A DNA stretch of 64,000 nucleotides from Flavobacteriia bacterium (GTDB lineage Bacteria; Bacteroidota; Bacteroidia; Flavobacteriales_D; Crocinitomicaceae): the NCBI GenBank assembly GCA_947450325.1, contig CANFUT010000002.1, positions 124,001 to 188,000 of the forward strand. Direction: 5' to 3'. Positions 47,797 through 51,533 of this stretch are shown one piece after another. Within the stretch, counting starts at the first letter, position 1. Every line of letters begins with the position of its first letter. A model generated the notes under the pieces. That model did not search any database. It was given only the letters and a program-made list of their open reading frames with translations, and was not told the DNA's origin. The position numbers were made by a program, and so were the translations under genes.

Positions 47797-47838
47797 CTCG
47801 AATAGAAATCAATTAAAAAATTAGTCTTTGTATAAAAC

Positions 47839-47873
47839 AAAAGGTCAAACTCTTAAGTAGAATTTGACCTTTT
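47839..47873. terminator. Bidirectional terminator between the dehydrogenase and ileS
   Basis: AAAAGGTCAAA (47839-47849) pairs perfectly with TTTGACCTTTT (47863-47873), an 11-bp stem with a 13-base loop. The stem ends in A and T runs, so it can stop transcription from both convergent genes. Confidence 0.85.
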
Positions 47874-47888
47874 AATATTTTGGGATTT

Positions 47889-50800
47889 TTATCCTTTTTT
47901 CAGAGCAATTTTTGCATCGCCTTCTTCAACTAAATCTATAATTAAAGAATCAGTTCCCAAGGTTTCAAATTGAATGTTATTTGCTAAAACTTCGTTGCAA
48001 ACGTATTCGCCATTCTTTTGAATTGCATTTTGTAATTCTGACGAACATTCAACGAATAAATTAATTTTATCAGTAACCTCAAGTCCAGAGTCTTTACGTA
48101 AGTTTTGAACACGATTTATTAACTCTCTTGCTATTCCTTCTTGGCGCAATTCGTCTGTCAATGTAATGTCTAACGCAACAGTAATCCCATTTTCACTACT
48201 CACCAACCAACCTGGAATATCTTGCGCGATGATTTCAAAGTCGCCTCCATCTAAATTGATTTCAGTTCCCTCGATTTCGCCGCTCCAAGCATTGGTGCTT
48301 TCAATCGAAGCAATATCTTCTTGCGTAAATCCAGCAACCAATGTTGCAATCGCTTTCATTTGTTTACCGTATTTCGGTCCAATGGTTTTGAAGTTTGGTT
48401 TGATGCTTTTCACCAACATGCCATTTCCTTCTTCCAACAATTCCAATTCTTTCACATTGACTTCAGATAAAATCAATTCGGAAATGTGTTGAATATTTTT
48501 AGCAAAATCAGCACTCAATGCTGGAACCATGATTTTTTGCAATGGTTGACGCACTCTCAAACGCTCCTTTTTACGCAATCCAAGTACTAAAGAAGAAACA
48601 CGTTGCGCAATTTCCATTTGAGCTTCTAAGTCTGTGTTTATCATGGTTTCGTTCACTTTAGGGAAATCAGCCAAATGCACTGAACTTACCGAATGACGTT
48701 TCGTAACCGCATTCAAATCTGAAAACAATTGATCCATGAAAAATGGTGCAATCGGCGAGCCTAGAATGGCTACTGTTTCCAAACAAGTATAAAGCGTTTG
48801 GTATGCAGAGATTTTGTCTTGTGAATCTTCTGATTTCCAGAATCTTCTTCTACACAAACGTACATACCAATTCGACAATTGATCATTCACAAAATCTTGA
48901 ATCAATCGGCCAGCTTTCGTTGGTTCGTATGTTTCGTATGATTCATCTACTTGTTGAATCAATGTATTTAATTTCGATAAAATCCATTGGTCAATTTCTG
49001 GTCGATTTTCCAACGCGATTTCTGCTTCAGAATAATCGAAACCATCAATGTTTGCATACAATGTAAAGAAAGAATAGGTATTGTACAAAGTTCCGAAAAA
49101 TTTGCGTTGAACTTCTGTAATTCCGTCTAAATCAAACTTCAAATTGTCCCACGGTTGCGCATTTGTAATCATGTACCAACGCGTCGCATCTGGGCCATAT
49201 TTATCTAATGTTTGGAAAGGATCAATCGTATTTCCTAAACGTTTCGACATTTTTTGACCATTTTTGTCAAGCACCAAACCGTTAGAAATTACATTCTTGT
49301 AGGCAACGGAATCAAAAACCATCGTTGCAATCGCGTGTAAGGTATAAAACCATCCTCTCGTTTGGTCAACACCTTCAGCAATGAAATCTCCTGGAAATCC
49401 TTTGTGATTGTCAATCAATTCTTTGTTTTCAAACGGATAATGCCATTGAGCATAAGGCATGGCACCTGAATCAAACCAAACGTCAATCAAATCAGCTTCG
49501 CGTTTCATTGGTTTTCCAGATGCAGAAACCAAAGTGATTGTATCAACGTAATTTTTGTGCAAATCAATCTGTGCGTAGTTCGCTTCAGACATGTCACCAA
49601 CTATAAAATTAGCCAATGGATTTTCAGTCATATAGCCAGCTTTCACTGATTTATCGCATTCGTTTTTCAATTCTTCAACCGAAGAAATAATGAGTTGTTC
49701 ATCGCCTTCTTCTGTTGCCCAAATTGGAATTGGAATTCCCCAATAACGTGAACGAGAAAGGTTCCAATCGTTGACATTTTCCAACCATTTTCCAAAACGT
49801 CCAGTTCCAGTTGATTCTGGTTTCCAATTGATGGTATTATTGAGTTCCATCATGCGTTCCTTCACGTTTGAAGCGCGCACAAACCATGAATCTAATGGAT
49901 AATATAAAATCGGTTTATCAGTTCGCCAGCAATGCGGATAACTGTGTTCGTATTTTTCAACTTTAAATGCTTTGTTTTCCGTTTTCAGTTTAATGGAAAT
50001 TTGAACATCGGCAGATCTTTCAGGTTCTGTTCCAGCATCGTAATATTCATTTTTCACGAACATTCCAGCAAATTCTCCCATTTCTGGTCTGAATTTTCCT
50101 TGTAGATCCACCAACGGAACAGCTTTTCCTGTATCGTCTAGTACCAACATTCCTGGAACACCGGCTTCCGCAGCAACTTTGGCATCATCAGCACCAAAAG
50201 TAGGCGCGATGTGTACAATTCCAGTTCCATCTTCTGTAGTCACAAAATCACCAGGAATCACGTGGAAAGCTTTATCAGCATTTTCATGTGGCAAAGCATA
50301 TGGAAGTAATTGTTCATATTGAATCCCAACCAAATCTTTTCCTTTAAATACAATTCCTTTTGTTTGATTAATAAGATCATTTATCCATCGAACTTCAATT
50401 TTCTTATCAAATTTTAAGTTAAAACTTTCAATTTCTTGATTCAAATTATCAATTTCAATCTTGTAAAAAGTATAAATAACTAAATCATCAATTTTATTGT
50501 CTATTAATTTTTGGTAATACGTTTCAATGGATGCTTTACTAATAATAGTTTTAATTTCAACATATTTTAATACTTCATTTTCTTGATAATAACCATCAAA
50601 AATAGAATGATCGAGTGTTCCTTTTAATAGGTTTAAAATAACCCATTTTTCTAAATTAATTCCTGTTATTAACTGAGGTATTTTTTCTTTTGCTAGGATT
50701 AAACTTCCAATTTCACCAGTGTATTGATTTTCTTGATTTTCAACCAACACGTATTCGATATTCGGTCCAACTGCCAACGCAGTATTGGAAGACAATGTCC

Positions 50801-51533
50801 AAGGTGTTGTGGTCCAAGCGAGGAAATAAATTGAATATTGCAAATTTGGAATTTTCCAATCTGCAATTTGCAATTGAGAATCAGAAATCTTAAATTGTGC
50901 AACAACCGTCGTGTCTTTCACATCGCGGTAACATCCCGGTTGGTTCAATTCGTGCGAAGACAATCCTGTACCTGCCTTCGGAGAATAAGGTTGGATCGTG
51001 TAACCTTTGTACATCAAATCTTTGTTGTACAGTTGACCCAACAACCACCAAACGGATTCCATGTATTTCGGTTCATAAGTGATGTATGGATTTTCCATAT
51101 CCACCCAATAACCCATTTGTTTGGTCAAATTATTCCAAATATCCGTATAACGCATGACCGCTTCGCGACACGCTTTGTTGTAGTCTTCTACAGAAATTTT
51201 CTTCCCAATATCTTCTTTGGTGATTCCCAATTCTTTTTCAACGCCTAATTCGACTGGTAAACCGTGTGTATCCCAACCAGCTTTGCGTTTTACTTGAAAT
51301 CCTTTCAATGTTTTGTAACGACAAAAAATATCTTTGATTGAGCGCGCCATCACATGGTGAATTCCAGGCAAACCATTCGCAGATGGTGGACCTTCGAAAA
51401 ACACGAATGGAGTTTTACCTTCTCTTGAAGTAATGGAAAGGTCAAAAATGGAATTATCGTCCCATTTCTTCATCACTTTTTCTGCTACTTCTGGAAGATT
51501 TAAACCTTTGTACTCTTGATATTTTGAACTCAT
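47889..51533 (-). CDS. ileS: Isoleucine-tRNA ligase with two unusual insertions
   Basis: This 1214-residue class I synthetase charges tRNA-Ile and edits valine. The start is the ATG at 51533 (MSSKYQEYKG). The HIGH-equivalent motif is SANGLPGIHH at residues 51-60, the KMSKR loop is at 761-765, and the CP1 editing site shows AWTTTPWTL and GTGIVHIAPTFGADD. Two insertions stand out. Residues about 217-234 (SDSQLQIADWKIPNLQYS) are encoded by a palindromic element within FKI-YFLAWTTTPW. Residues about 285-395 form an AT-rich insertion in CP1 between LILAKEKIPQ and FKGKDLVGIQYEQLLP, with a helical, Lys/Ile/Asp-rich composition. The rest is intact, including the C-terminal anticodon-binding part, so it is expected to be functional. 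It has its own promoter. Confidence 0.95.
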   Translation of the reverse strand: MSSKYQEYKGLNLPEVAEKVMKKWDDNSIFDLSITSREGKTPFVFFEGPPSANGLPGIHHVMARSIKDIFCRYKTLKGFQVKRKAGWDTHGLPVELGVEKELGITKEDIGKKISVEDYNKACREAVMRYTDIWNNLTKQMGYWVDMENPYITYEPKYMESVWWLLGQLYNKDLMYKGYTIQPYSPKAGTGLSSHELNQPGCYRDVKDTTVVAQFKISDSQLQIADWKIPNLQYSIYFLAWTTTPWTLSSNTALAVGPNIEYVLVENQENQYTGEIGSLILAKEKIPQLITGINLEKWVILNLLKGTLDHSIFDGYYQENEVLKYVEIKTIISKASIETYYQKLIDNKIDDLVIYTFYKIEIDNLNQEIESFNLKFDKKIEVRWINDLINQTKGIVFKGKDLVGIQYEQLLPYALPHENADKAFHVIPGDFVTTEDGTGIVHIAPTFGADDAKVAAEAGVPGMLVLDDTGKAVPLVDLQGKFRPEMGEFAGMFVKNEYYDAGTEPERSADVQISIKLKTENKAFKVEKYEHSYPHCWRTDKPILYYPLDSWFVRASNVKERMMELNNTINWKPESTGTGRFGKWLENVNDWNLSRSRYWGIPIPIWATEEGDEQLIISSVEELKNECDKSVKAGYMTENPLANFIVGDMSEANYAQIDLHKNYVDTITLVSASGKPMKREADLIDVWFDSGAMPYAQWHYPFENKELIDNHKGFPGDFIAEGVDQTRGWFYTLHAIATMVFDSVAYKNVISNGLVLDKNGQKMSKRLGNTIDPFQTLDKYGPDATRWYMITNAQPWDNLKFDLDGITEVQRKFFGTLYNTYSFFTLYANIDGFDYSEAEIALENRPEIDQWILSKLNTLIQQVDESYETYEPTKAGRLIQDFVNDQLSNWYVRLCRRRFWKSEDSQDKISAYQTLYTCLETVAILGSPIAPFFMDQLFSDLNAVTKRHSVSSVHLADFPKVNETMINTDLEAQMEIAQRVSSLVLGLRKKERLRVRQPLQKIMVPALSADFAKNIQHISELILSEVNVKELELLEEGNGMLVKSIKPNFKTIGPKYGKQMKAIATLVAGFTQEDIASIESTNAWSGEIEGTEINLDGGDFEIIAQDIPGWLVSSENGITVALDITLTDELRQEGIARELINRVQNLRKDSGLEVTDKINLFVECSSELQNAIQKNGEYVCNEVLANNIQFETLGTDSLIIDLVEEGDAKIALKKG
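50837..50867. repeat. Palindromic element inside ileS
   Basis: ATTGCAAAT at 50837-50845 is repeated inverted as ATCTGCAAT at 50859-50867 (8 of 9 positions match). TGGAA at 50847-50851 pairs with TTCCA at 50854-50858 around a 2-base loop. The hairpin is read in frame as the SQLQIADWKIPNLQ part of IleS. Confidence 0.6.

Follow-up and report, generated by a model that had tools for sequence, protein, structure and literature searches.

A probable copy of a dispersed palindromic repeat family read in frame in the isoleucyl-tRNA synthetase gene of a flavobacterial genome

Palindromic repeats that are read in frame are already known: Rickettsia has them, and so do scattered genes with REPs in other bacteria. 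The Rickettsia palindromic element (RPE), as described in PMC10969869, is a palindrome of about 150 bp which encodes a conserved peptide and lies in frame within housekeeping genes. An earlier note on the DNA studied here, a stretch of 64,000 nucleotides (hereafter the window), had compared a palindrome in its isoleucyl-tRNA synthetase gene (ileS) to these elements. The comparison stands in so far as the two work alike: the ileS element too is a palindromic dispersed repeat, in frame in a housekeeping gene. It does not extend to membership, given that the described RPE measures about 150 bp and encodes a conserved peptide, whereas the ileS element spans about 40 bp (with a palindrome of 38 bp) and belongs with arrays of degenerate 7-8 bp units in variable number. 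GTAG/CGTC REPs have been reported inside ORFs, including those for unspecified tRNA synthetases of X. oryzae, E. lithoralis, and S. alaskensis, and an intragenic REP occupies a shared recB site in two Xanthomonas; the main text of that paper does not name ileS (PMC3733652). Like these intragenic REPs the ileS element is a short palindrome in coding DNA, but it has neither a GTAG nor a CGTC tag. The short tandemly repeated repetitive (STRR) heptamers of cyanobacteria are likewise spread through the genome as tandem units of seven bases with degenerate sequence; the units described here differ in occurring in both orientations, as palindromes, and in another phylum. We found no report of GCARATT palindromic arrays, or of a recurrently filled ileS loop, in the open-access literature, which is weak evidence of novelty.

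The host genome (G000) is a 3.44-Mb draft of 42 contigs, and the window lies in contig C2 (table 1). The ileS reading frame is open throughout the palindrome, and the 18 in-frame codons read by the earlier note are confirmed; the paired part (50837-50874) encodes residues 219-232, QLQIADWKIPNLQY. On the coding strand, the inverted AATTTGC comes after the direct units. In an AlphaFold model of the CP1 fragment (mean pLDDT 60.8, pTM 0.57, ten-residue blocks near the loop 64-77), the loop is flanked by predicted strands at residues 209-215 and 234-240 (36-42 and 61-67 in fragment numbering), its placement being based on a sequence alignment and this middling model. By alignment, the same loop is a turn of only a few residues in the solved IleRS 8c8w.

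Table 1. Coordinates in the window of ileS and of the palindromic element within it
Feature	Position	Strand	Remarks
ileS, isoleucyl-tRNA synthetase	47889-51530	minus	1213 aa counted from the conserved start; Pfam tRNA-synt_1, Anticodon_1, DUF5915
18 codons SDSQLQIADWKIPNLQYS, residues 216-233	50832-50885	minus	Loop in the CP1 editing domain, with a predicted beta strand on either side
Imperfect palindrome, 38 bp (paired region of the predicted hairpin)	50837-50874		GCARATT-family 7-8 bp units in both orientations
Match to GCARATTN{0,1}RMARATTN{0,1}RMARATT (GCAAATTGCAGATTGGAAAATT)	50850-50871	minus	One of 10 matches in the genome; contig C2:174850-174871

The hairpin itself is weak for its length and only modestly stable. 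As DNA it reaches -9.3 kcal/mol (z -1.6), with 13 of 200 shuffles equally good, and as coding-strand RNA -13.3 kcal/mol (z -1.8), with 10 of 200. Over the whole 64 kb, 172 of 12,792 44-nt windows fold as well as the ileS element; among those with at most 14 G+C the figure is 17 of 4,193, three of the 17 being the element itself. The 23-nt left part of the palindrome has no second copy within 3 mismatches in the 64-kb window. Energy by itself is not decisive, and the above-chance evidence is membership in a dispersed repeat family, not hairpin strength. Just past the ileS stop codon, at 47826-47880 around AAAAGGTCAAA..TTTGACCTTTT, there is a strong hairpin, of -19.0 kcal/mol for 44 nt, which is probably the ileS terminator.

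Other parts of CP1 also vary. A second stretch, 50340-50700, is very A+T-rich (17-29% G+C vs about 37-48% in most of the surrounding gene) and stands where G004 has a shorter segment; downstream of it, the two IleS are otherwise 99% identical. The IleS of G013 has CP1 segments enlarged differently, and two further proteins (L116, L129) carry short Pro/Gly-rich inserts (DNQPAGKAGN, TVPPSGVRGP) before IPYQ/IPFQ, at a second variable CP1 place; these may be further repeat-derived residues.

A search of the host genome with the 131 bases around the ileS element returned weaker matches (best 83% over 46 nt, E 4.8e-6), the better of which consist of 7-8 bp units in arrays (GCA[A/G]ATT, in some cases extended by a base), with inverted units coming next in most of them; both unit orientations are present at most fetched sites. 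We define a dispersed GCARATT heptad/octad palindromic array as at least three consecutive units plus adjacent inverted units, a composition which the ileS element has. The strict three-unit pattern (table 1) matches 10 times at 8 sites in the host genome, against none for the same pattern reversed; the motif, taken for a repeat in the earlier note, is indeed not unique. Matches number 7 in G001, 1 in G003, 13 in G004, and 44 in G011. None was found in G002, a genome only 73% complete, so that absence elsewhere in it says little; its ileS was read. Overall, 14 of 59 genomes including the host contain the strict pattern, corresponding to 14 of the 36 from family f1 and none of the 23 from other families. 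The reversed control gave three matches over the 59 genomes, one in G012 and two in G036, both of which are without the strict pattern. When another copy (L004) served as the query in a looser DNA search (E <= 0.1), 29 of the 59 genomes matched; seven of these lie outside f1, where the best E is 0.0026, and the sharp family limit thus rests on the strict pattern. Since records of Fluviicola and Lishizhenia (Crocinitomicaceae) fall among the f1 genomes on the IleS tree, we take f1 to be Crocinitomicaceae.

We consider it probable, with good confidence, that the ileS element is a small member of a non-autonomous palindromic repeat family, dispersed in genomes of this bacterial family, and that it entered ileS and was tolerated there. 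Against this reading, the ileS copy is short and has only units, no long consensus, in common with the other copies. Nor did the sites compared show a transposition event, a donor copy, or a target duplication.

The family is mostly found between genes. Of the 22 pattern sites in G000, G001, G003, and G004, 18 are intergenic, three of these touching the start of an ORF as called by length, and only four are coding. Thirty loci were fetched by pattern, with ORFs called by length only; three lay in ORFs, namely the ileS of G003 and one G017 site fetched twice. The latter (L219) holds an in-frame GCAGATT array (LQIADCRLQITQ) in the gene for an efflux protein of the CusA-like RND type, within residues 422-451, opposite which a single alignment places four residues of the solved ZneA. 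Set against the frequent in-frame insertion of RPEs, the coding sites are all ileS, one gene in four genomes, plus this one G017 gene; they bear out the earlier suggestion that the repeat is tolerated in coding DNA.

Arrays also differ in length between near relatives. Nine site pairs were compared, seven between G000 and G004 and two between G000 and G001. Three differ strongly: 121 vs 152 nt and 104 vs 120 nt at two intergenic G000-G004 sites, whose flanks are 97-100% identical at aligned positions, and 123 vs 166 nt at one G000-G001 site. The remaining pairs differ by 0 to 8 nt, which points to whole-unit turnover at some sites only. Identity inside arrays is 81-96% at aligned positions, with substitutions not much above those of the flanks. 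Regarding readability, arrays of GCAAATT, GCAGATT, GCAAATTG, and GCAGATTG (heptad, GCARATTG-type) contain no stops in any of the six frames, while stops do arise in those of GCAAATTA and GCAGATTA, whose eighth base is A (GCARATTA). Because 7 mod 3 = 1, a pure heptad array gives, as a matter of arithmetic, the same heptapeptide cycle whichever of a strand's three frames is read.

The earlier note had supposed the insert to be strain-specific, which it is not: G004 (one substitution) and G001 (two substitutions) share it, and the ileS of G003 has a different array built from the same units; altogether, ileS matches the unit pattern in four of the five genus genomes. Nor do all relatives have these residues: the congener G002 is without the insert and has MRAGQDTPFGNSLP there, a state resembling that of the outgroups G022 and L071. 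The IleS tree was built from 57 of 106 proteins with the segment removed, by a quick method without bootstrap, on a hand-chosen sample of family f1 and a subset of other Flavobacteriales. With labels set by eye (the weakest cases being L083, counted as heptad, and L040), the heptad label changes 3 times, the GTAG label 5 times, and other hairpins 6 times. Most simply, one array would have entered ileS in an ancestor common to three of the five genus genomes examined. Alternatively, slippage may have built the array within ileS itself, starting from a few units present by chance.

To place this loop in a wider context, 110 IleS were gathered (the host and L032-L140), of which four (L057, L089, L094, L138) gave no segment by the search expression. 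The remaining 106 include near-copies, L036 and L071 being identical outside the segment. The segment preceding the WTTTPWT motif ranges from 9 to 49 residues (median 19), and the normally compact segment of the earlier note is thus true of 8c8w but not of this sample. Perfect stems of at least 12 bp occur in the segment in five of the 106 genes (7.0 kb in total) and nowhere in the other 359 kb; for at least 10 bp the counts are six vs three, and for at least 9 bp seven vs 14. Similarly, a G+C-corrected folding score of -5 or below is reached by 14 of 708 segment windows, from eight genes, vs 3 of 34,787 elsewhere; the ileS element of the host, at z -3.3, is outside these eight. Other palindromes occupy the same loop in Flavobacteriaceae. 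The ileS insert of G032 has further copies in G032 and G005, that of L134 recurs at three more places in its own genome, and that of L129 at two more in its own. In the cases tested, a set outside which the inserts of L040, L065, L085, and L118 fall, the inserts, judged by sequence matches, are repeats of their own genomes, and the CP1 loop of ileS appears to be a recurrent landing site for palindromic repeats.

REPs of the GTAG type provide the largest set of such inserts. Among 399 genomes of the order, 17 gave a match when GTAG..CTAC was searched for directly ahead of the WTTTPWT codons. In sixteen of these, which all belong to family f1 and represent six genera, the match is a 28-nt GTAG unit; the seventeenth (G102, of another family) does not have such a unit. 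Among 395 genomes of the phylum, only two of them from f1, one match was found, again not a 28-nt GTAG unit; as far as sampled, the GTAG insert is thus a feature of f1. The search pattern, which served for both samples, misses cases, for example the GTAG palindrome in the ileS of G032, whose gap exceeds the allowed length. The units pair at 10-12 of 12 positions in 15 of the 16 genomes, with that of G339 decayed (7/12). Eleven of the 16 inserts, from five genera, end at the identical nucleotide (CTAC then T[G/T]GCATGG). Besides independent insertions, one early insertion, followed by losses and by replacement between REP copies, could equally account for the shared end point. G005 and G027, which are close in IleS, have different REPs at the loop. 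The host shows no match to the ileS GTAG pattern, against 16 relatives that do.

Matches to a GTAG model were counted in 19 genomes (strands counted apart). As the ileS inserts themselves went into the model, they match by construction. Counts are 51 in G005, 36 in G027, 17 in G032, 134 in G014 (from 150 of 482 candidates scored), and 5, 26, and 20 in the genomes of L073, L090, and L092. Genomes without a GTAG insert in ileS match as well (G000 18, G001 4, G003 39, G004 10, G033 6, G013 5, G018 6), and 5 of 19 genomes (G002, G009, G021, G022, G025) have none. Of 20 GTAG sites fetched from G005 (L285-L304), 17 lie outside ORFs (again called by length only) and three inside, including ileS. At 10 of these 20 sites at least 9 of 12 flanking bases are mutually complementary, vs 3 of 380 swapped pairs (mean 8.65 vs 4.13 of 12), which places the REPs at half of the sites at the tips of longer hairpins. 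REPs inside small palindromes have been reported in other species (PMC3733652). In the ileS of G362 (L307), the 12 bases on one side of the REP pair at 11 positions with the 12 on the other, those after it being host codons for NIHF, as if the insertion had also copied the host flank backwards. By comparison, complementarity is 1-3 of 12 in the eleven ileS inserts with the shared end.

Could the segment simply be ordinary IleS sequence, a hypervariable loop in an A+T-rich gene which forms a palindrome and matches the units by chance? The 9-49 residue spread over 106 IleS and hairpin z values of only about -1.6 to -1.8 would agree with this. Nonetheless, the pattern that matches in ileS does so nine more times in the same genome with zero reversed matches, it is present in the ileS of four of five genus genomes, and the stems of at least 10 bp in other lineages (six of 106 genes in 7.0 kb of segment vs three in 359 kb) fall in this very place; we regard coincidence as improbable. 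A second possibility is that the element is a REP, moved by a Y1 (HUH) transposase of the RAYT type. The host has three Y1_Tnp genes besides its 18 strand matches to the GTAG model, and its relatives have GTAG REPs at the same ileS loop. The end tags speak against such an identity, as neither GTAG/CTAC nor CGTC/GACG occurs on either strand of the element (50831-50892), and so does the RAYT association, the three-unit pattern being found in none of 12 Y1_Tnp loci of G000, G001, G003, and G004 (2.2-3.4 kb each). On both counts we hold this origin to be highly improbable. Single units do occur at Y1_Tnp loci, two of them 27 bp apart in L186. The RAYT-like Y1_Tnp genes of the host (L179-L181) have open frames of 157-188 aa, and some lie, by eye, beside other palindromes.

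An adaptive role, with an mRNA hairpin tuning ileS translation, for instance, or the loop tuning the editing domain, would fit the filling of the same loop again and again in different lineages. Such a role is hard to reconcile with inserts that vary in sequence, length, and peptide, with their absence from the close relative G002, or with the different REPs of G005 and G027, and appears to us very improbable. A stronger version of the landing-site reading is that the CP1 hairpin tip acts as a safe harbour, where GTAG REPs, C+T-rich palindromes, and GCARATT arrays entered independently in many lineages; the identical end of GTAG REPs in five genera would then suggest site- or structure-directed insertion of single-stranded palindromes beyond mere tolerance. 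We put this forward tentatively and think it rather unlikely.

Returning to the reading of a dispersed family copy that entered ileS and was tolerated, copies would consist of tandem degenerate units (GCA[A/G]ATT with an optional extra base), usually then inverted and mostly intergenic, whose number can change between close species. The distribution of the family is suggestive of mobility. As to how it spreads, our preferred explanation is that unit arrays would be copied through template switching or slippage on single-stranded DNA, for which no dedicated transposase would be needed. The ileS copy would have survived because the tip of the CP1 beta hairpin tolerates changes in length and because heptad and GCARATTG-type units are free of stops in all six frames. 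The repeat-encoded residues are presumably translated in the cell, and the inserted peptide would be neutral.

One loop of one essential enzyme appears to have received several unrelated kinds of palindrome repeatedly, so that presence, absence, and replacement can be compared directly between near relatives. Two old questions can thereby be put to the test: how such tiny palindromes spread when no enzyme of their own is evident, and to what extent their arrival shapes protein length.
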